This document shows positions 740 to 60,548 of a stretch of DNA of 64,000 bases, piece by piece. Position 1 is the first letter of the stretch, and each line of letters begins with the position of its first letter. The stretch is from contig CAINNJ010000033.1 of the NCBI GenBank assembly GCA_903851195.1, forward strand, positions 186,001 to 250,000. Direction: 5' to 3'. This stretch comes from an uncultured Acidobacteriia bacterium (GTDB lineage: Bacteria > Acidobacteriota > Terriglobia > Bryobacterales > Bryobacteraceae). Below the pieces are notes generated by a model. The model saw only the letters and a list, made by a program, of their open reading frames with translations. It searched no databases and had not been told where the DNA came from. A program made the translations under genes and the position numbers.

Positions 740-2728
740 TTACTCCGGAAGCCCAAATGCAAGGATTGTTCCCCCCGCCGCGACCGCGATATATTCCTTT
801 CCATCGAACTGGTAAGCCATCGGAGATGCTTTCCAGGTCTGGCTGGTCTGGAAGGCCCAGAGCAGCTTACCGGTAACGGCGTCGGCCGCGGCGAACGCGC
901 CGCTGTCATCGCCAAAGAAGACAAGACCGGTGGAGGTGGCCAGCGTGCCGCCCCAGGAATCGGCGGTTCCCTGTTGCGGAAGTTCCCATTTCACGGCGCC
1001 GGTCTGCAGGTCGAGAGCGCGCAGGATGCGGCGGGCCTTGAAACCGGGATCGGTCTTCTCGGCGCCGCCGAGGAAGGCCTTACCCGCCTCCCATTCGGCC
1101 GGGCGCAGGGAGTAGATGGAGCACTTCTCGTTCGTCTGCATATAGAAGAGTCCGGTGGCCGGGTTGTAAGAAGGCGAATACCAGTTGGTGGCGCCGTCCT
1201 GGGAGGGGCAGACGCGGGTTCCCTTCTCAGTGGGCGCCTGGCCGGGGATCTTGACCGGTTTGCCGTCCGGGCCGATTCCGCTGGCCCAGGTCAGTTCCTT
1301 AATGAATTGTTTGGCAAGCAGCAGTTTGCCGTTGGTGCGGTCGAAGATATAGAAGAAACCGTTGCGATTGCCCTGGACGAGCAGTTTGCGGGGCTGGCCC
1401 TGCCAGGTGGTGTTAATAACGAGCGGGGTTTCCGTGGTGTCCCAATCCCACTGGTCGTGCGGCGTGGTCTGGTAGAACCACTTCATCTTGCCGGTTTTCG
1501 AATCGAGCGCGAGAATGCTGTCGGAATAAAGGTTATCGCCGCCGCGTTCGTCGCCGTTGTAATCGGGGCCGGGATTGCCGGTCTGCCAGAAGATGGTGTC
1601 GGTTTCGGCATCGTACACGCCGGTGAACCAGGTGGTGGAGCCGCCGTGGGCGATGTCGCGCCCTTTCCAGGTGTCGGCGTTCGGTTCGCCCGGAGCGGGG
1701 ACGGTCCAAGTCTGCCAGAGACGCTTGCCTGTGGTCTGATCGTAGGCGGAAAGAAAGCCGCGGACGCCTTCTTCGCCGCCGGCCGTTCCGCTGACCACCA
1801 TGTCGCCGACGATGATGGGCGCGGAGGTGGCGTTGTAGTTCTGGTGCCAGTCGGCCATCTCGGTTTCCCAGACCAGGGCGCCATCGGTGCGGTTGAGCGC
1901 GATCAGATGGGCATTGTCCGTGACCATGAAAATCTTCTCGCCCGCAATGGCGACGCCGCGGTTGTTACCGCCGGCCGCGTTGCCGACCAGCGAACGGGTG
2001 CGGGGGCGCTTGTAGTGCCAGACGGTGCGGCCGCTGCCGGCATCGAGCGCGAAACACTCGTTGGCGTTGGTCACGTACATCAGTCCATCGACGACGACGG
2101 GAGTTCCCTGCAGGGCGGAGGCGCCGGGGAGGGTGAAGGTCCAGCGCGGGGAGACACGTTTCACGTTCGCCTTCGTGATCTGGCTGAGCGTGATATAGCG
2201 ATTCCCGCCGATGTTGCCGTTGTAAGACGGCCAGTTCACTTCGGAGGTCACTTCACGGAACTTGCCGCCCTCGGCTTTGCGCAGCAGGTGGATCTTCTTG
2301 TCGGCGGAACGCACCTGGAGATCGTCCAGACTCTCATTAACCACGCTGCCTTCGAGCGTCTTTCCGCTCGTGAGGCGCGCTTTGATGGCGTAGGGCTGGA
2401 AGCCGACCACGCCCGGTTCCAGAGACTTCAGGAAGGCGATGAGCTTCGGCATGTCGGCGTCATTCACGTTGTTGCCCGGCATGCCGCGGGTAGGCAGACC
2501 TTCGCGAACGGTAGTGGCGATCTGGGCGGAGGAAAGAGAGCGCACGCGTTCACCGGCGATGGGCGGGCCGAGTTCACCGCCGTTGCCATCGGAACCGTGG
2601 CATCCGGAACAGCGGTTCTCAAAGATCTTGCGGCCGTCCGCGAGAGAATCCTGCGCCAGCACAGCCGACGCGGCGACGATCATCAAAATGCCGGAAAACG
2701 CGGTAGTTCGCTTCAAATCTTCCCTCAT
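740..2728 (-). CDS. secreted quinoprotein (PQQ-type) dehydrogenase with N-terminal cytochrome c domain
   Basis: The 662-residue protein starts with a Sec signal peptide (hydrophobic core about residues 10-25, ending AVLAQ). A class I cytochrome c domain follows, with haem site CSGCH at 40-44 and a likely axial Met83 (TRGMPG). A long eight-bladed PQQ-type propeller fills about residues 165-660, with repeated W-containing blades such as AGSGRTVWHY, KTGKMKWFYQ and TGKLLWAFQ. Family members oxidise alcohols or sugars in the periplasm and pass electrons to the attached haem. Unlike classical methanol or ethanol dehydrogenases, the cytochrome is at the N-terminus, as is common in Acidobacteria. It is divergent from the TPR/ASPIC gene at 2835, with about 106 bp between them. 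The substrate is unknown. Confidence 0.88.
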   Translation of the reverse strand: MREDLKRTTAFSGILMIVAASAVLAQDSLADGRKIFENRCSGCHGSDGNGGELGPPIAGERVRSLSSAQIATTVREGLPTRGMPGNNVNDADMPKLIAFLKSLEPGVVGFQPYAIKARLTSGKTLEGSVVNESLDDLQVRSADKKIHLLRKAEGGKFREVTSEVNWPSYNGNIGGNRYITLSQITKANVKRVSPRWTFTLPGASALQGTPVVVDGLMYVTNANECFALDAGSGRTVWHYKRPRTRSLVGNAAGGNNRGVAIAGEKIFMVTDNAHLIALNRTDGALVWETEMADWHQNYNATSAPIIVGDMVVSGTAGGEEGVRGFLSAYDQTTGKRLWQTWTVPAPGEPNADTWKGRDIAHGGSTTWFTGVYDAETDTIFWQTGNPGPDYNGDERGGDNLYSDSILALDSKTGKMKWFYQTTPHDQWDWDTTETPLVINTTWQGQPRKLLVQGNRNGFFYIFDRTNGKLLLAKQFIKELTWASGIGPDGKPVKIPGQAPTEKGTRVCPSQDGATNWYSPSYNPATGLFYMQTNEKCSIYSLRPAEWEAGKAFLGGAEKTDPGFKARRILRALDLQTGAVKWELPQQGTADSWGGTLATSTGLVFFGDDSGAFAAADAVTGKLLWAFQTSQTWKASPMAYQFDGKEYIAVAAGGTILAFGLPE

Positions 2729-2834
2729 GTTCAGGTCTACTTTAGCGTAGGCGGGAACGGCGGCGGGAAATCGCGCTAAATTGGTCCTTGCGCCGGTTGG
2801 CGGGCATCAGACAAGTGGAAAAAGGTGGATTTGC

Positions 2835-5795
2835 GTGAAGAGAAAGCGCTTTTGGCGAGACAGCGCGCTGGCCTGCGCCGGCCTGGGACTGGCGGGATTG
2901 ATGCTGACTGGATTGATGCTGATGGGTGCGGCGCCTTCCGCCAACGATCGGCTGGAGCAGAACCGTAACCTGGGGAAGGCGTTTTACGAGAATCCCACGA
3001 CGGCGACCGAGGCGGTGGGCGAGTTTAAGAAAGCGCTGGATCTGGCGCCCGATTCCACGCGCGAAAAGCTCAATTATGCCCTGGCGCTGCTGCACGCGGG
3101 CAAGGCGGAGCAGGGTGTGGCGCTGCTGAAAGAGGTGCAGAAGCGCGATCCGAAGCTGCCGCACACGTGGTTCAATCTGGGGATTTACTACCGCAAAAAC
3201 GGCGACGCGGAGACGGCGATTCCGCAATTCGAAGGCATGCTGAAGCTGACGCCGGAAGAGCCGGTGGCGCATTACCAGCTGGGCGCGCTTTACAAACAGC
3301 TGGGGAAGAACGCCGAAGCCGCGGCGCAGTTCGAAGAGGCCGCGAAGCTGAATCCGCTGCTGGCGGGGGCGCATTTCCAGCTCTATAACCTCTACCGGCA
3401 ACTGGGCCGCACGGCGGACGCGGCGCAGCAACTGCAGACCTTTCAGGCGCTGAAGAAGCAGCAGGAAGGCGCGGCGGTGGCCGAGGATGTGGACTGGTGC
3501 AATTACGCGGAAATCTACGATCCGCCGCGGATGCCGACGGCGGTCGGCGCGGAACCCGCGCCTTCGTTCGATGACAAGACGCTGGCGGACAAGGTGGATG
3601 CGAAGTCGGCCGGGATGCTGGCGATCGATTTGAACGGTAAAGGGCAGACGGATCTGCTGGTCTGGTCGTCACTCGGCGTTTCCGTTTATCGGCAGGGCAA
3701 TGCCTTGGTTTCCGATACCGGGCTGGGCGAACTGAAGGGTGTGGTTCATGTGGCCGCCGGGGATTTCGATAACGACGGGCTGATGGATTTGTGCATCCTG
3801 ACCGGGCAGGGTCCGGCGCTTTACCGGAATACGGGCGGGAAGTTTGCGAAGTTCGCGGCGGAACTTCCGCAGCGGCGTTTCGAGCGGGCGGTGTGGGTGG
3901 ATTACGACCACGATTACGATCTGGATCTGGTGTTGCTGGGCGAGAAATCCACGGCGGTGCGCAATCAGGGCGCGGCGGGTTTCGCGGAACGCGCGACCGA
4001 TCTGCCGTTCGTGAACGGGCAGGTGACCGATGCGTACAAACTGCGGGCCGTGCCGGATACGAAGGCGTTCGACATCGCGGTGTTCTTCACGGGACACGCG
4101 CCGGTGATCTATCGCGATCAGCTGGGTGGTCATTACGAAGCCGCGGCTTACGACGGAAAGCCAGTTGATGCGGCGCAGTTGGAGGCCGATTTCGATGGCG
4201 ACGGGAAGGCGGACCGCGTCCGGATCGCGGAAGACGGCGCGGTGCACTTCCTGCATAACCAGACGAAGACCACGCACCACTGGATCCGCGTGCAGCTGGC
4301 CGGTGTGAAGAGTCTGAAGCTCGGCCAGGACGCGGAGATCGAGATTAAGGCCGGGACACTGTATCGCAAGCAGATGTATACCGGCGTGCCGTTGACGTTC
4401 GACGTGGGCGACTATGCGCAGGTGGACGTGGTGCGCATCACGTGGATGAACGGGCTGATCCAGAACGAGACGAAGCAGGCAGCCAACAAGGCGTACCGGT
4501 ATGAAGAGGCGCAGCGTTTGTCCGGTTCCTGCCCGATGGTGTGGACCTGGAATGGTCATGAGTTCGAGTTCATTACCGACGTTTTAGGGGTGGCTCCTCT
4601 GGGCGCGAGCGACGGGGACGGCTCGTATTTTCCGGTGGATCACGACGAGTATGTGTCGATTCCGGGAAAGTCGCTGGTGGCGGTGGACGGGCGTTATCAG
4701 GTGCGGATTACCGAGGAGCTGAGCGAAGTTTCGTATCTCGATCAGGTGCAGTTGTTCGCGGTGGATCATCCGGCCGATACGGAGATTTTTACGAACGAGA
4801 AGTTCAAGAGTCCGCCGTATCCGGAAGATCGTTTGTTCGGCGTGAAGCGGCGGGTGTATCCGCGGGCGGCGCGCGACGGGCAGGGCAGGGATGTGCTGGA
4901 GCGGATTTTGAAGACCGACCAGCGGTATCCGGATCAGTTCGCGCGGAAGGAGTCCGGGGCGGCGGAGACACATACGCTGGAGCTCGATTTCGGTAAAGCG
5001 GCGCCTTCCGGAGAGGCGGTTTTGTTACTGCGGGGCTGGGTGGACTGGCCGGACGGCAGTACGTTCCGCGCGGTGTCGCAGGAGAAGAAGGACGGGTTCG
5101 TGATGCCGCAGTTGCAGATGCAGGATGCGGCGGGGCAATGGCAGACGGTGAATCCGGATATGGGGATGCCGGCGGGCAAGCCGAAGACAATTGCGGTGCC
5201 GGTGAAGTTTATCTCGGCGAGCCGGAAGCTTCGGATCGTGACGAACCTTTGTGTTTACTGGGATGAGATTTTCCTGAGTGAAGACGCGGGAGCGCCGGTG
5301 GTGAGTCAGTTGCGGGCGCCGCTTGAGAGCGCGGATCTGCATTTCCGGGGGTTTTCGGAAGCGGTGATCGATCGGGACCGGAAGCAGCCGGATACGTATC
5401 GGTACGGGAGCGTGACGGCGAATTCGTTCTGGAATCCGACGCCGGGGATGTATACGCGGTTCGGCGATGTGCGGGAACTGATGACGGATGCGGACGACCG
5501 GCTGACGATTATGGGCTCCGGGGATGAGTTGACGCTGCGGTTCGGGGCGGCGGGATTGCCGGCGGTGAAGCCAGGCTGGAAGCGGGATTATCTGTTGAAG
5601 GTGGACGGGTGGGCGAAGGACCGGGATCCGAATACGGCGTTTTCGGGGTCGGTGGAGCCGCTGCCGTTTCATGGGATGAGTGTTTATCCGTATCCGGCGG
5701 GGGAGCATTTCCCGAACGATGCGGGGCATGAGAAGTGGCGGAAGGAGTACAACACGCGGCCGGCGCTGCGGTTGGTCCGGCCGTTGAGCGATTGA
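2835..5795 (+). CDS. large secreted TPR / FG-GAP / ASPIC-UnbV protein
   Basis: A GTG start at 2835 is chosen because AAGGTGG sits about 6 nt upstream; the open frame extends back to a TTG at 2781. The 986-residue product has an N-terminal membrane or signal segment (ALACAGLGLAGLML...), then TPR repeats over about residues 30-210. FG-GAP/VCBS-like calcium-loop repeats follow (D.DNDG.MDL, DYDHDYDLDL, DFDGDGKADR), and an ASPIC/UnbV module around 475-545 (HHWIRVQLAGV...). The last ~430 residues are a separate region rich in Trp and Tyr that I do not recognise. Such proteins are abundant in Acidobacteria and are thought to be extracytoplasmic binding or assembly factors. No enzyme active site is evident. 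Confidence 0.85.
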   Translation: MKRKRFWRDSALACAGLGLAGLMLTGLMLMGAAPSANDRLEQNRNLGKAFYENPTTATEAVGEFKKALDLAPDSTREKLNYALALLHAGKAEQGVALLKEVQKRDPKLPHTWFNLGIYYRKNGDAETAIPQFEGMLKLTPEEPVAHYQLGALYKQLGKNAEAAAQFEEAAKLNPLLAGAHFQLYNLYRQLGRTADAAQQLQTFQALKKQQEGAAVAEDVDWCNYAEIYDPPRMPTAVGAEPAPSFDDKTLADKVDAKSAGMLAIDLNGKGQTDLLVWSSLGVSVYRQGNALVSDTGLGELKGVVHVAAGDFDNDGLMDLCILTGQGPALYRNTGGKFAKFAAELPQRRFERAVWVDYDHDYDLDLVLLGEKSTAVRNQGAAGFAERATDLPFVNGQVTDAYKLRAVPDTKAFDIAVFFTGHAPVIYRDQLGGHYEAAAYDGKPVDAAQLEADFDGDGKADRVRIAEDGAVHFLHNQTKTTHHWIRVQLAGVKSLKLGQDAEIEIKAGTLYRKQMYTGVPLTFDVGDYAQVDVVRITWMNGLIQNETKQAANKAYRYEEAQRLSGSCPMVWTWNGHEFEFITDVLGVAPLGASDGDGSYFPVDHDEYVSIPGKSLVAVDGRYQVRITEELSEVSYLDQVQLFAVDHPADTEIFTNEKFKSPPYPEDRLFGVKRRVYPRAARDGQGRDVLERILKTDQRYPDQFARKESGAAETHTLELDFGKAAPSGEAVLLLRGWVDWPDGSTFRAVSQEKKDGFVMPQLQMQDAAGQWQTVNPDMGMPAGKPKTIAVPVKFISASRKLRIVTNLCVYWDEIFLSEDAGAPVVSQLRAPLESADLHFRGFSEAVIDRDRKQPDTYRYGSVTANSFWNPTPGMYTRFGDVRELMTDADDRLTIMGSGDELTLRFGAAGLPAVKPGWKRDYLLKVDGWAKDRDPNTAFSGSVEPLPFHGMSVYPYPAGEHFPNDAGHEKWRKEYNTRPALRLVRPLSD

Positions 5796-56314: not shown

Positions 56315-57019
56315 CTATTCGGCGATCCGGAAGCCGTATTCGTGGATCAGGTTTCCGGCCGTACGATAGAGGCGAACCAGATAAGCGCCGGGTTCGAGGG
56401 GTCCCGGCACTTTGACCTGACAGGAGCCCGGTGTATTCGGGCGCAGGGGAGGTCCGCTCCAAACCCAGCTTCCGGAATCGGTGACGATTTCCACCTTCAG
56501 GTTGCTCTCTCCCGCGGTTTCGAGCAAAGTCAGCCGGAGTTCGCGGGTGGCCCGGACCGCCGGCACATCGCCCCGCATCGCGCTCAACTCGAGGCTCGCC
56601 AGGGCCGGAACTCCTGAATCGGGACCTTTCGAGCCGCCCGGCGAGCGGTGAAGGCCCACGATCAACACCGACGCCAGCACCACCGACGCCAGCACCACCG
56701 ACGCCAGGGGTCCGGCGAAAGCCAGCCGGGGCCATACGGAAAAGGCACTCTGCCGCCGGTCTAAAACCTGCCGGCGGAACCAGCCGGACACTTTACCCGA
56801 AGGAGCCGGCGGATTCCCCTGCAGGGCACCCCGCAGCGCAAACGCCAGTCCGGCCACCTCCTCCAGTTCCACCCGGCACGGCTCACAGATCAGCAGGTGT
56901 TCTTCCGTTTCTTCAATCTCGCTCTCCGTGAGGCGGTCGAGCGCGTACATTTCCAGTTGTTCGCTGGACCGGTGGGCCCAAAACCGCGGACTTTCGACGA
57001 CAGTCACAGGGTCGTCCAT
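56315..57019 (-). CDS. zinc-finger anti-sigma-like membrane protein
   Basis: The ATG at 57019 has AAGGGG about 8 nt upstream. The 234-residue protein has an N-terminal ZAS-type zinc finger: H41-xxx-C45-xx-C48 (EHLLICEPCR) set among acidic helices, as in anti-sigma factors that hold ECF sigmas. One membrane segment follows (about 97-123), then a beta-rich extracytoplasmic domain (130-234). A 15-bp tandem repeat (2.7 copies) encodes part of the membrane helix (ASVVLASVVLASV). It is the third gene after CHAT and sigma on the same strand, 108 nt behind the sigma gene. An anti-sigma role is strong inference. Confidence 0.8.
   Translation of the reverse strand: MDDPVTVVESPRFWAHRSSEQLEMYALDRLTESEIEETEEHLLICEPCRVELEEVAGLAFALRGALQGNPPAPSGKVSGWFRRQVLDRRQSAFSVWPRLAFAGPLASVVLASVVLASVLIVGLHRSPGGSKGPDSGVPALASLELSAMRGDVPAVRATRELRLTLLETAGESNLKVEIVTDSGSWVWSGPPLRPNTPGSCQVKVPGPLEPGAYLVRLYRTAGNLIHEYGFRIAE
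56667..56707 (-). repeat. 15-bp minisatellite inside the anti-sigma-like gene
   Basis: ACCGACGCCAGCACC repeats at 56667-56681 and 56682-56696, with a partial third copy at 56697-56707. The unit is a multiple of 3, so it adds or removes five residues (SVVLA) in the transmembrane helix without frameshift. Confidence 0.85.
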
Positions 57020-57127
57020 AACGGATCCCCTTTCGGGAGTTCCAACCAGCGCAAATGCTCCATATACAGGAAAAGTGCGGAGGGAAGAAAAACTTCTCAA
57101 CCTTAATATCAGATTTTTTCGGAAAAA

Positions 57128-57844
57128 TCAGCGCTTTCGGAAACCACTCGGGCTGTTTGCCATGAATCTTCTGCCCAGTTCGCCGAATCTCGCCTTGGCG
57201 CGCGATTTCAGCAGCCGGAACTGATTGTAACTCAGCCCCATTTCCTGGCAGATCTGCTCCTGCGGCTGGTCCTGCACGTAGAACCGGTCCAGAATCTCCC
57301 GGTCCCGCCGGGAGATTCCTTTCATGACGCGCCGGGCGATCTCGGCTCTCTGCTGCTGCTGCAGTGTTCGTTCGGGATCGTCCTTCCAGTCGGTGAGGGA
57401 GAAAAGAGTGTCTTCGTAATCGACGTAGGTGCGGCGCTTGCTGACGTTGGCCTCGATGGCGGCCGCGATGCGGCGTTTGACAACTGTACGCACGAATCCC
57501 ATCAGGCGGGCGGGGTCGCGCAGTTCTCCGTTCCGGATTGCCTGGGCAACGATGACAAAGCAGTCGTGGACCTTGTCGTCGAGCTCATCGGCGCCCAGAT
57601 TCCGCATGAGGAAGTAGCGGATTCCCTTGCCGAAAATGCCGTAGAGCTCCTCCATTGCAGAGGGGTCGCCGTCGTGGATCCGGGCGACAAGCGTAGCCCA
57701 GTCCTGAATCCCGAACGCATCGTCCTCCTGCCTGGTTCCGCGGCCGTCCTCCCCCGACGGGGGTTCGGCGCCGGGTTCCATGCCGGGCAGGAAAGGCTGA
57801 CGGTCCTCCTGTTCGGGCCGCAGCCGTGCCGGTGCGGCTTTCAT
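57128..57844 (-). CDS. ECF-type sigma-70 factor
   Basis: From the ATG at 57844 (overlapping the CHAT stop as ATGA) the protein has 238 residues. A Pro/Glu-rich N-terminal extension (1-45) precedes region 2 (HDGDPSAMEELYGIFGKGIRYFLMRNLGADELDDKVHDCFVIVAQAI...MGFVRTVVKRRI) and region 4 (RAEIARRVMKGISRRDREILDRFYVQDQPQEQICQEMGLSYNQFRLLKSRAKARF). This is a two-region, extracytoplasmic-function-type factor. The gene downstream encodes a zinc-finger membrane protein that fits as its inhibitor. The promoter it recognises is not known. Confidence 0.88.
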   Translation of the reverse strand: MKAAPARLRPEQEDRQPFLPGMEPGAEPPSGEDGRGTRQEDDAFGIQDWATLVARIHDGDPSAMEELYGIFGKGIRYFLMRNLGADELDDKVHDCFVIVAQAIRNGELRDPARLMGFVRTVVKRRIAAAIEANVSKRRTYVDYEDTLFSLTDWKDDPERTLQQQQRAEIARRVMKGISRRDREILDRFYVQDQPQEQICQEMGLSYNQFRLLKSRAKARFGELGRRFMANSPSGFRKR

Positions 57845-60228
57845 AAGGTCCGGCTCAGAAGGAAATATCCCGCCCAGCTTCCCGGCAAGCGGCGTGCGGA
57901 AGGGCTCAGGAGAGCCTTCCGCTGTGCGGTCTGCAGGGCGGCGGCCGCGCCTTGTTCCGGAGCGGCGTGCAGGGAGCGATAGAAATCGGTCATCAGGGAT
58001 TGCGCCGCGTCGTCCGGAATGTCCCATTGCGTCGCCAGCACCGCCATGGCGCCCGCGCCAATCCACGCGCGCGTCAATCCCATCAGACCCGCGCCCGGCA
58101 GAGCCTGGCCCTGCGCGGAGTGGCAGCCGTTCATCACCACGAGCTTCGGACGCACGCCGCGAGCCACGATTTCACGGGGACCCAGCAATCCCATGACGCC
58201 GTCGGAATCGAGGCTCAACGCGATCACACCCGACTGGAACTCGTCTTTCTGGGCCACGATATGAGTCGCGAAGTGCAGTATGGCGGGGTTCGTTTTCAGT
58301 GCCGCGCGAACGGGCACGATCCGCGCGTCCGGGCCGGTCAGCAGGCGCGATCCTGCCGGCCGGCCCCATGCCCTTATACAAGCCTCCAGTTCCGGCGCCG
58401 TGTTGGGGAGGCGGGGGAGGGACTGGCCGGAGTGAAAGCGTGTCCCGCGATATCGCTCGTCGGCCGGGCTGTAGACGGGGTCGCCGATACCCAGAAAACC
58501 GGCGTCCGCGGGAATCGATCCGCGCTGCGCGAGAAGCGCCCCGGGAATGATCCGGATGTCGGCGTGTTCGATCAGATAGACCGGTTCGGCGCCCTGATTC
58601 GTGACCAGAGCGGCAAAGGGCAGCTCGTAAAGTGGTCCGTCGAGTTCGAGGAGCCAGTGCCTGCGGGCGAGGAACGATTCCGGCACGTGACCGAACAGAT
58701 CCCGGTAGAGCTTGCGTCCCTGTTCATTCGCGGCGGCGCCATCGCCATCCCGAAGCGCGCGGCGAAGCGCGGAGACTTCGAGTTCAATCTGTTGTGTCGG
58801 GCACAACCGGACCGCTTCCATGCGGGAACGGTCGACCGCCCAGAGCCAGGCGCTGATTTTCGAGGCATGGAAGCTCAGCAGGACCGTCTCGTCGTCGAGA
58901 ATATTCCGGATGTGAGCGAGAGGCGTTTCCGCGTTCGATTCGGTCGGTTTTCCTCCCGCGTCTGTCTCCATCCGCTGCAACTCCTGACGGAGTGCGTTCG
59001 CCTTTTTTCCGGCGTCGGAAGCCGGCGCGGGCGCCGACCGAACCAGGGACTGATACCTTGCGAGAACATCCCAGTAATGAGAAGGGAGCCTGGTGCGCCA
59101 GTCGTTCGCCTCCGGGATGAGGGCGCGCAGACTCCAGAGGCGGTCCTGCTCGGCCGCATCAAAGGTTTCTTCAAGCAGGGACCGATCCCCGGTCTGCATC
59201 CACAGGCGATTGCCGGAATCGATGTACCCCTCGAGCACCTGACTGAGACCGCTTTCCAGCGCCACGCGGTCCTGGTCGGCGGGAACGATGTCGGTTCGCA
59301 TTTCCGCGGCCATTTTGCGCGATTCGGCATAATCGGCGAACCCGCCGCGAATGTCACCCGTTTTGGACCGGAACTCGCCCCGGTCCGCAAGTACGCCGAA
59401 TCGGGGTGTAAACCGGGGCGGCGAGGCGACGGCGCTGTCGAAGAGCATCGCGGCGGAATGATCGTCGCCCCGCAGATGTCTGACCTTGGCGAGACCCACC
59501 AGGATGGATGCCGACAGAAATACCTTATGGGTTCGCGCCAGCCGGAAGCCTTCATGGAAAGTCCACTCGGCCAGGTCGGTGCGCTGTTTTTCCAGAGATT
59601 TGCGCCCTAACGTTCCGAGGGCAGCGATCGCATTACCCACATCGCCAAGGTCGAGAAATTCATTCAGGCATTGCAGAAAGAGGGGAATCGACTCCTCCAC
59701 CTGCCCGAGCTCGGCCGTAGCGAAGGCGTTCTGATAGAGGAGAAAAGCGTGCAGGGAACGGTCTGTTTTCTCCGCCATCGGTAAAGCGTCGCGCGCGATC
59801 TGCAACGCTTTCTCCGGTTGCCCAATGCGGATATAAAGGGCCGCAATGGAGTTCAGCGCGGTCTCGAGAAGGACGGTTTGACCAAAGTTCAGCGCCTGTT
59901 CTTTGGCGTCTGTCAATTCCACCAGCGCCTCCCGGAACTGAAGCAGCAGCTCAGAACAAATGCCGCCGTTGATCCGGTTTCCCACGGCCACCTTGTAATT
60001 CTTTTCCTTTTCCGCGAGCGCGGCGGCAGCCCGAAACATTTCGCGGGCTTCCAGATAGCGCCCCTCGTTATAGAGGGTTACGCCGCGCGTCTTCAGACGC
60101 ACGAGTTCGGGGGAGCCGGGAGATTTCTGTTGGGATGGACTTGCTGCGTTCCGGGAAGAACCGGTCAGCAAGAGCGCCATCAGAGTCGAACCAATGATGA
60201 CGCCGACCGTCACGGTTTTTACGGGCAC
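57841..60228 (-). CDS. CHAT-domain cysteine protease with TPR repeats, membrane/periplasmic
   Basis: The GTG at 60228 is preferred over TTG 60231 because AGAGG is then 6 nt upstream. The 795-residue product has a hydrophobic N-terminal segment (about 7-22: VGVIIGSTLMALLLTG), so it is exported or membrane-anchored. A TPR array (about 45-330), a helical linker and a C-terminal CHAT caspase-like domain (about 515-795) follow. The His/Cys dyad is intact: H656 (LHFATH) and C702 (NGCHSAQG). CHAT enzymes cleave proteins in defence or stress signalling. It is translationally coupled to the sigma gene. Proteolytic control of the sigma/anti-sigma pair is a reasonable hypothesis. Confidence 0.92.
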   Translation of the reverse strand: MPVKTVTVGVIIGSTLMALLLTGSSRNAASPSQQKSPGSPELVRLKTRGVTLYNEGRYLEAREMFRAAAALAEKEKNYKVAVGNRINGGICSELLLQFREALVELTDAKEQALNFGQTVLLETALNSIAALYIRIGQPEKALQIARDALPMAEKTDRSLHAFLLYQNAFATAELGQVEESIPLFLQCLNEFLDLGDVGNAIAALGTLGRKSLEKQRTDLAEWTFHEGFRLARTHKVFLSASILVGLAKVRHLRGDDHSAAMLFDSAVASPPRFTPRFGVLADRGEFRSKTGDIRGGFADYAESRKMAAEMRTDIVPADQDRVALESGLSQVLEGYIDSGNRLWMQTGDRSLLEETFDAAEQDRLWSLRALIPEANDWRTRLPSHYWDVLARYQSLVRSAPAPASDAGKKANALRQELQRMETDAGGKPTESNAETPLAHIRNILDDETVLLSFHASKISAWLWAVDRSRMEAVRLCPTQQIELEVSALRRALRDGDGAAANEQGRKLYRDLFGHVPESFLARRHWLLELDGPLYELPFAALVTNQGAEPVYLIEHADIRIIPGALLAQRGSIPADAGFLGIGDPVYSPADERYRGTRFHSGQSLPRLPNTAPELEACIRAWGRPAGSRLLTGPDARIVPVRAALKTNPAILHFATHIVAQKDEFQSGVIALSLDSDGVMGLLGPREIVARGVRPKLVVMNGCHSAQGQALPGAGLMGLTRAWIGAGAMAVLATQWDIPDDAAQSLMTDFYRSLHAAPEQGAAAALQTAQRKALLSPSARRLPGSWAGYFLLSRTL

Positions 60229-60247
60229 CAAAACCTCTGGTCCGGCC

Positions 60248-60282
60248 GGTGATAGTCGCCCTATGAGGGCGGAACTATCACC
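60248..60282. promoter_or_regulatory. long palindrome in the CHAT gene leader
   Basis: GGTGATAGTCGCCCT (60248-60262) pairs with AGGGCG and ACTATCACC (60266-60271 and 60274-60282) around an ATG loop; only two bases (GA) bulge. There is no T-run on either strand. It lies 20 nt upstream of the CHAT start codon and next to a predicted -10 (TACACT, 60289-60284 on the minus strand; -35 TTTACG at 60313-60308, weak). An operator or a 5'-mRNA stem-loop is likely. The remainder of 60290-60548 shows no gene. Confidence 0.7.
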
Positions 60283-60548
60283 GAGTGTACCAAAGCAAAC
60301 GACGGATCGTAAAACGTTTTTCCTGACATCGATTCCGAGACAAGGCAGGGCCCTGTTAGAATCCGAACAAATAAAACAAGTTTTGGGCCAAGGTCAGCAC
60401 CACATCGCTGATCATCGAGATTCTCTCCTCTGCAGCCGTTTGCCGCGCGCGACTTGCGACCTCACGCTAGCGGGCAAGGGCAGGAGAAACGCTCGCCGGA
60501 CCTGCTGAAATGGGCTGTAACCCGCTGAAAAGAAAACAAGAAAAATTT

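Follow-up and report, generated by a model that had tools for sequence, protein, structure and literature searches.

The three-gene operon in the window

Extracytoplasmic function (ECF) sigma factors are a main bacterial route for envelope sensing, and for many of them we know of no protease to which the first step of the release cascade has been assigned. The window analysed here, a stretch of 64,000 nucleotides from contig CAINNJ010000033.1 of an uncultured Acidobacteriia bacterium (genome G000; 7.7 Mb, 67 contigs), carries on its minus strand three genes that encode, in this order, a TPR-CHAT caspase-like protease, an ECF-type sigma factor and a membrane anti-sigma factor with a ZAS zinc finger and a predicted outer domain (Table 1). 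An earlier sequence-only reading of the locus had described three same-strand genes for CHAT, sigma and a membrane protein, a description borne out by the open reading frames (ORFs) and by matches to PF12770 and TIGR02937; the region end that it gave, 60282, lies beyond the CHAT start codon and within a hairpin leader.

The CHAT ORF has a GTG start at 60228, five bases 3′ of an AGAGG, and an alternative TTG start at 60231. Its product matches the Pfam families CHAT (PF12770, expectation value E 8.8e-49) and TPR_12 (E 4e-12), and the AlphaFold2 model of the protein shows TPR helices followed by an α/β CHAT domain (predicted local distance difference test score, pLDDT, 80.5). A hydrophobic segment is present at the N terminus, at residues about 4–24. 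The catalytic residues His656 and Cys702, which had been called intact, are so when the protein is numbered from the GTG at 60228, and the proposed ATGA coupling of the sigma gene to CHAT is likewise found, with the sigma ATG overlapping the CHAT stop codon.

In terms of profile matches, the sigma factor is over the cut-off for the NCBIfam model TIGR02937 (sigma70-ECF; 54 bits, cut-off 42.9, E 1.4e-14), below the cut-off for Pfam region 4 (23.4 bits, cut-off 25.7) and without a match to Pfam region 2. The anti-sigma factor stays below the cut-offs of both zf-HC2 (18.6 bits, E 0.002; cut-off 22.2) and NF052375 (antisigma; 33.5 bits, E 4e-8; cut-off 100). The unit is identified by the ECF sigma profile over its cut-off, by a CHAT domain with its His/Cys dyad and by a helical N-terminal HxxxCxxC motif, that is, a ZAS domain, encoded beside the sigma gene. 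The AlphaFold2 model of the anti-sigma factor places helices at residues 19–67 around the ZAS motif, followed by a transmembrane (TM) helix at 104–123 and eight strands at 140–233 (pLDDT 75.6, pTM 0.43); together with the alignment of orthologs, this model agrees with the zinc finger with H41, C45 and C48, the one TM helix and the outer domain that had been read from the letters. Foldseek returned weak, mixed matches of the outer β-sandwich to Ig-like, CopC and TapA folds, the best being a phage baseplate chain. Homology of the anti-sigma factor to any part of CHAT was rejected (hhalign probability 0.14%).

Table 1. Coordinates of the operon and its features within the window.
Feature	Position	Strand	Details
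Hairpin leader upstream of CHAT	60235..60295	-	RNA fold z -5.0
TPR-CHAT caspase-like protease, probably exported	57841..60231	-	795-796 aa; TTG 60231 or GTG 60228 start
CHAT catalytic His656 codon	58261..58263	-	numbering from GTG 60228
CHAT catalytic Cys702 codon	58123..58125	-	numbering from GTG 60228
ECF-type sigma factor	57128..57844	-	238 aa; ATG overlaps CHAT stop as ATGA
Membrane anti-sigma factor: ZAS zinc finger, one TM helix, outer β-sandwich	56315..57019	-	234 aa, MDDPV start
ZAS motif H41-x3-C45-x2-C48 (HxxxCxxC)	56876..56899	-	
Predicted TM helix, residues 104-123	56651..56710	-	hydropathy 2.7; AlphaFold2 helix 104-123
Outer β-sandwich domain, residues 140-233	56321..56602	-	AlphaFold2, eight strands, block pLDDT 73-95
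Arg149-Gly150, conserved, after first strand; candidate contact or cut site	56570..56575	-	MAFFT alignment

The six flanking genes that were checked encode penicillin amidase, ATE transferase, redoxin, BNR-repeat, major facilitator superfamily (MFS) and PP-loop proteins. No PDZ serine site-1 protease was found among the three operon genes or these six scanned neighbors.

Conservation in the family and coupling of CHAT to the outer domain

The family of the window's own genome, taken as Bryobacteraceae, was represented by 237 genomes, 220 of which contain an ortholog of the sigma factor; in a family draw spread over genera, the figure is 58 of 61. CHAT lies directly upstream of sigma at 157 of the 180 family loci analysed (one per genome, paralogs and duplicates excluded), and since this gene order (CHAT, sigma, anti-sigma) is seen repeatedly in the family, the three-gene arrangement is not a product of chance. 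The sequence-only reading had named co-occurrence of the triplet in relatives as a test, and such co-occurrence holds in the family and fails phylum-wide: a triad with this sigma across the phylum was ruled out by the finding that 2 of 247 phylum genomes match at 1e-25, these being the window's own and one family member. One record titled Acidimicrobiia bacterium (L136) carries a typical locus of the family and is probably a mislabelled metagenome-assembled genome.

The CHAT proteins diverge fast, with 24–40% identity to the window's copy, and their dyad is invariant nonetheless: by alignment, His and Cys are intact in 151 of 151 ortholog domains, in 117 of which the catalytic His was also matched by a strict regular expression requiring TH. 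The anti-sigma orthologs show 21–34% identity to the window's copy, with H41, C45, C48, R216 and E227 invariant in the alignment (n = 45). An N-terminal hydrophobic segment is present in 88 of 100 full-length CHAT ORFs of this arrangement, hereafter module 1.

The coupling of CHAT to the outer domain of the anti-sigma factor was tabulated over 179 genomes, one locus with a truncated sigma (L171) being excluded here while counted among the 180. Paralogous sigmas (L129, L130, L131, L172) and duplicates of genomes already included (L159, L160, L161, L164, L170) were left out. Trait coding was partly manual and concerned unlinked or contig-edge CHATs (L089, L128, L214), fifteen unlinked anti-sigmas, one anti-sigma scored as full because its match was split (L266) and two scored as lacking the outer domain (L157, L169). 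Recoding of L166 (G392) as not assessable, of L222 and five further loci as full and of L147 as lacking the outer domain left the tree changes (10 and 9) and the pairs (4, 0, 1) unaltered.

All 153 assessable genomes with CHAT encode an anti-sigma factor with a full outer domain, and six further genomes with CHAT stop at a contig edge. The 153 comprise 147 genomes, in 15 of which the anti-sigma copy is located elsewhere in the genome, one genome with the outer domain in another frame (G401) and five with a full unlinked copy. The CHAT ortholog is absent from 20 genomes, each searched in its entirety; the best CHAT in these has E 4.6e-105, whereas the orthologs of the other genomes reach 1.5e-134 or better. 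Eighteen of the 19 assessable CHAT-less genomes are without a full outer domain copy: a short anti-sigma adjoins sigma in 15 of the 19, a short anti-sigma lies elsewhere in the genome of G393, and a search of the genomes of G394 and G395 found no full anti-sigma copy. The twentieth CHAT-less genome, G392, is not assessable, its anti-sigma gene running off the contig.

The one exception, G059, keeps the outer domain, and in it a conserved arginine is deleted. This Arg, located in an L-x-A-x-R-G stretch after the TM helix, is present in 131 of 132 full anti-sigmas (MAFFT alignment, with the Arg column taken from the printed rows) and is missing in G059; the residue that follows is Gly in 113, Ser in 12, Ala in 3, Asn in 2 and Gln in 1. 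In four members of the genus of G059 (G471, G472, G473, G477), CHAT is retained next to a full anti-sigma. CHAT losses are nested in genera that otherwise keep CHAT (g35, g47, g25, g59). Mapped onto the sigma tree, CHAT requires at least 10 changes and the outer domain at least 9.

In a first batch of loci, the anti-sigma of those without CHAT ended after the zinc finger or after the TM helix, and the prediction that the two traits are coupled was fixed before a second batch was drawn (n = 100; 99 further sigma loci plus locus L302 of G049, a genome without a sigma match in the draw, which stops at a contig edge). The second-batch loci with CHAT comprise 76 with a full adjacent anti-sigma, 12 with none adjacent, 2 flagged as partial and 5 at a contig edge; those without CHAT comprise 4 with a short anti-sigma and 1 with a full one. 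All 12 loci without an adjacent anti-sigma have a full copy elsewhere (7 + 5), and of the two flagged as partial one is a frameshift with the outer domain readable in the other frame (L222) and one is full-length with a split match (L266). Three genomes predicted to be CHAT-less (G456, G459, G462), all of them among the four with a short anti-sigma, were found to be without the ortholog throughout the genome, as foretold. At two loci with a full anti-sigma and no adjacent CHAT (L214, L089), CHAT is found elsewhere in the genome.

Incomplete assemblies could mimic the absence of one gene, but not easily a matching truncation of its neighbor. Because the loss of CHAT is accompanied by a lost or altered outer domain, CHAT and the anti-sigma factor probably work together as a signal relay, and since CHAT and the outer domain are kept and lost together, we consider it very probable that these two are functional partners.

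As a separate observation, the anti-sigma factors of CHAT-less genomes have shrunk to little beyond the zinc-finger domain and are mostly without a TM helix (L075, L119, L122, L127, L145, L146, L150, L158, L167, L168, L218–L220, L250). With the anti-sigma so reduced, the sigma factor seems to have been switched to another kind of control.

A second module and the leader upstream of CHAT

The genome of the window contains a second, related set of genes (G000:C4, L010) that encodes a sigma factor, a membrane ZAS anti-sigma, a protein designated X and a TPR-CHAT protein. Thirteen further loci of this module 2 were collected from other family genomes, chosen for a listed anti-sigma paralog. All 13 have sigma next to anti-sigma, the sigma gene being fragmented in L340 and truncated by the contig start in L343. 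X was detected at 10 of the 13 loci, and CHAT comes next at 11; of the two without CHAT, L339 stops at a contig end after X and L340 has none. The His/Cys dyad is intact in 11 of 11 module-2 CHATs (L345, which is cut short, was left out). By eye, each of the 14 module-2 anti-sigmas has an Arg at a comparable place, with G, A, P or D as the next residue. Two genomes without a module-1 CHAT, G456 and G462, keep module 2 (L336, L337).

A lipobox is present in 9 of 12 module-2 CHATs by regular expression and in 2 more by eye, L010 included. These lipoboxes, themselves read from sequence, give the strongest indication obtained here that CHATs of this kind probably face outwards.

Protein X is encoded by ORFs of about 250–340 aa; the copy in L010, at 2540–3331, has no Pfam match, and ORFs matching it occur in L333–L339 and L342–L344. 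Elsewhere in the window's genome, two more TPR-CHAT genes, on the minus strand at 3748–4974 of L007 and at 3701–4954 of L008, each overlap with the beginning of a gene for an S41 peptidase, which suggests another CHAT/protease pairing. Near the L007 CHAT gene, on the opposite strand (3021–3719, plus), lies a gene for an HxxxCxxC protein without a Pfam match.

A leader element lies upstream of many CHAT genes (L097, L100, L103 and others) and consists of CTGGTATGATTC or a similar sequence followed by a long hairpin whose arms vary. Among 26 aligned leaders, two-sided changes occur in 9 of 16 consensus pairs. The covariance model built from these 26 matches in 29 of 61 family genomes; at E 0.01 with stricter filters, it found no match in 32 of the 61, the window's own among them. 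Of the 29 matches, 28 lie just upstream of a module-1 CHAT, including the unlinked CHAT of G054; the match in G048 (contig C238) is unplaced, the CHAT of this genome being cut at a contig end, and the remaining matches fall on the complementary strand at these sites. A regular expression for the leader found it at 0 of 23 checked loci without CHAT beside sigma. In the window, the 3′ strand of the hairpin overlaps the AGAGG before the CHAT start. A search of the leader against Rfam gave only matches below the gathering score. The element could belong to the transcript as a 5′ leader RNA, or it could be a palindrome that overlaps with a promoter; its TGGTATGAT core resembles an extended -10. Upstream of the unlinked anti-sigma genes, comparison by eye revealed no apparent shared sigma promoter, and no regulon of the sigma factor emerged.

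Known systems and a possible release mechanism

The architecture of the unit is reminiscent of two known systems, DdvS/DdvA of Myxococcus xanthus and Craspase. A profile of 14 CHAT domains (12 from module 1 and one each from L010 and L008) searched against the PDB matched DdvA first (8rot_B, E 6.2e-10, with His and Cys aligned), followed by separase (7e-7) and Csx29 (1e-3); by this profile, the CHAT domain of DdvA is homologous to that of the window. In a Foldseek search with the CHAT model, Craspase TPR-CHAT chains take ranks 1–4 and DdvA takes ranks 5 and 9 (8rw5 and 8rot, query-normalized TM-scores 0.51 and 0.49).

Like the unit here, DdvS/DdvA (PDB 8rot, 8rw5, 8rlz) combines an ECF sigma with an anti-sigma. 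DdvA was deposited as a 991-aa chain named "CHAT domain-containing protein" in an entry titled transmembrane anti-sigma factor, its M. xanthus origin being given by name only. Its residues 7–91 match our ZAS-TM profile weakly and without significance (E 0.012). DdvA is one fused protein, whereas CHAT and the anti-sigma are separate here with the sigma gene between them, so that the unit is not a DdvA-type fusion; the outer β-sandwich of our anti-sigma is a further difference from DdvA. An M. xanthus ECF/anti-sigma pair that directs a type III-B CRISPR system is, we assume, DdvS/DdvA itself. Such a pair is reported in a review (PMC8156234), and according to PMC4374960 DdvS is active once DdvA is inactivated, the activating signal having been described as unknown in 2015.

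In Craspase, the type III-E CRISPR system, the TPR-CHAT protein Csx29 cuts Csx30, a protein that inhibits CASP-sigma (PMC10028731, in part), and the cut sites differ between orthologs (PMC11106740, in part). Craspase thus resembles the present unit in tying a TPR-CHAT protease to the inhibitor of an ECF-like sigma, as the same portion of PMC10028731 has it; it differs in being RNA-activated and bound to Cas7-11, and the match of the CHAT profile to Csx29 is weak (E 1e-3). Membership in Craspase was rejected, with no PADLOC or defence-model match in the three operon proteins and no Cas protein among the six neighbors, a result for this locus only.

The RpoE/RseA/DegS/RseP system and RsiW-type systems share with the unit an ECF sigma, a single-pass anti-sigma with an outer domain and an M50 protease in the genome; the DegS/RseA/RseP pathway is described in PMC10028731. 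Unlike the RpoE system, the operon has no PDZ serine protease, and the linked enzyme is a clan CD cysteine protease. In ECF54, a group said to function without an anti-sigma, genes for CHAT, subtilase and carboxypeptidase proteins occur in the neighborhood of an ECF sigma (PMC8999054, excerpts); the proximity of CHAT to an ECF sigma is shared, whereas the unit studied here has an anti-sigma. The idea of a CHAT protease that frees an ECF sigma is already known from Craspase, Csx30 and CASP-sigma (PMC10028731, in part), and the three-gene unit is a split-gene variation on the CHAT/anti-sigma theme that DdvA and Craspase already represent rather than a new category. No description of a split CHAT/ECF/ZAS unit was found in the titles and abstract openings of the papers listed by searches of open-access literature.

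With the partnership of CHAT and the outer domain as a starting point, the following order of events can be envisaged. The ZAS domain, judged from its family, would hold the ECF sigma in the cytoplasm, and the single predicted TM helix would put the small β-sandwich outside the inner membrane. The TPR-CHAT protein, likely exported to the same side, would serve as dedicated partner of the outer segment, as the coupled losses suggest; its TPR part may sense an envelope signal, upon which the CHAT part would cut the outer segment, perhaps near Arg149, and the short stub could be passed to an M50 site-2 protease that frees sigma. A cut after Arg149 would leave about 26 residues beyond the TM helix in the AlphaFold2 model, a length that would suit a site-2 protease, and the M50 site-2 protease family has three matches over the cut-off in the window's genome. 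Of the mechanisms considered, activation of sigma through cleavage of the anti-sigma by CHAT is the most probable, and from sequence and models we put its probability at about 0.5.

Several observations weigh against this reading or narrow what can be drawn from the data. The presence of M50 proteases says little, because all 14 of 14 control genomes have them too. In the AlphaFold2 model, Arg149 follows the first strand of the folded outer domain. The cut sites of Craspase vary between orthologs (PMC11106740, in part), so conservation does not by itself mark the Arg as the site of cleavage. The signal peptide of the window CHAT is weak, with no signal-peptidase site that is clear by eye, and the hydropathy test of CHAT export is a weak one, because 45 of 100 CHAT ORFs have an equally hydrophobic stretch elsewhere; the proposal of the sequence-only reading that CHAT is exported to the side of the outer domain is favored by the hydrophobic N termini and the module-2 lipoboxes, with the location itself indirectly assigned. 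A PDB search with the window CHAT domain as a single sequence gave no CHAT chain, which only the profile retrieved. The coupling prediction failed at the locus level for one of the five CHAT-less loci of the second batch, that of G322, which has a full anti-sigma; CHAT was found elsewhere in this genome, and the prediction holds at the genome level only. Of five independent pairs on supported branches of the sigma tree, four differ in the same way, none in the opposite way and one does not differ, which gives a sign test p of 0.125, a test that cannot reach 0.05 because the pairs are too few. Finally, the coupled loss fits a non-cleaving partner equally well.

The main rival is such a partner, a TPR-CHAT protein with a binding or shielding role akin to that of RseB, which would bind the outer domain and shield it from, or present it to, another site-1 protease while its own protease activity serves elsewhere or in tuning. 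A binding partner would be expected to be kept and lost together with the outer domain, as observed, a large TPR superhelix is a typical binding module, and the single chain of DdvA, named CHAT and titled anti-sigma, suits sensing as well as cutting. A pure scaffold, however, would not be expected to retain the His/Cys dyad without exception, as these proteins do (151 of 151 and 11 of 11 domains), and the three genes of the operon include no other protease; we regard this role as unlikely on balance, while giving it more weight than any other alternative. It is less probable still that CHAT is an output of the system, an envelope protease co-expressed with sigma whose activity or products are read by the outer domain as feedback and whose main task lies with other envelope proteins. 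CHAT opens the operon and has a leader to itself in 29 of 61 genomes, an arrangement that would suit a product under separate control, and gene X lies between anti-sigma and CHAT at most module-2 loci, but only the outer part is lost together with CHAT while sigma and ZAS mostly stay, which points to a direct link with the outer part.

The same pattern of loss bears on a cytoplasmic switch of the Craspase kind, in which CHAT would act inside on sigma or on the ZAS side and the hydrophobic N-terminal stretch would be a mere anchor. The cleavage of the sigma inhibitor Csx30 by a CHAT protein (PMC10028731, in part) is a precedent, and the window signal peptide lacks a clear cleavage site; yet it is the outer domain and not ZAS that is co-lost with CHAT, the related module-2 CHATs mostly have lipoboxes and DdvA is titled a transmembrane anti-sigma, and this switch appears very improbable. 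Hardly any weight is left for neutral linkage, that is, three unrelated adjacent genes with no functional dependence: the genes do lie apart in some genomes (CHAT in G054 and G322, the anti-sigma in 15 + 5 genomes), but all partners are still kept where they are unlinked, and the outer domain is absent or changed where CHAT is absent.

Returning to cleavage of the anti-sigma by CHAT, we propose, tentatively and at somewhat less than even odds, that the exported CHATs of Bryobacteraceae are dedicated site-1 proteases for membrane anti-sigmas in both gene arrangements, that DdvA is a fused form of the same kind and that the conserved Arg loop of the outer domain takes part in recognition. If this is true, clan CD proteases would act outside the inner membrane in the manner of the DegS-type serine proteases of the sigma-E response. 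Should the cut be shown, a CHAT protease would gain a natural extracytoplasmic substrate outside CRISPR, and DdvA, for which the structure is solved and the signal has been described as unknown, would be given a testable mechanism.

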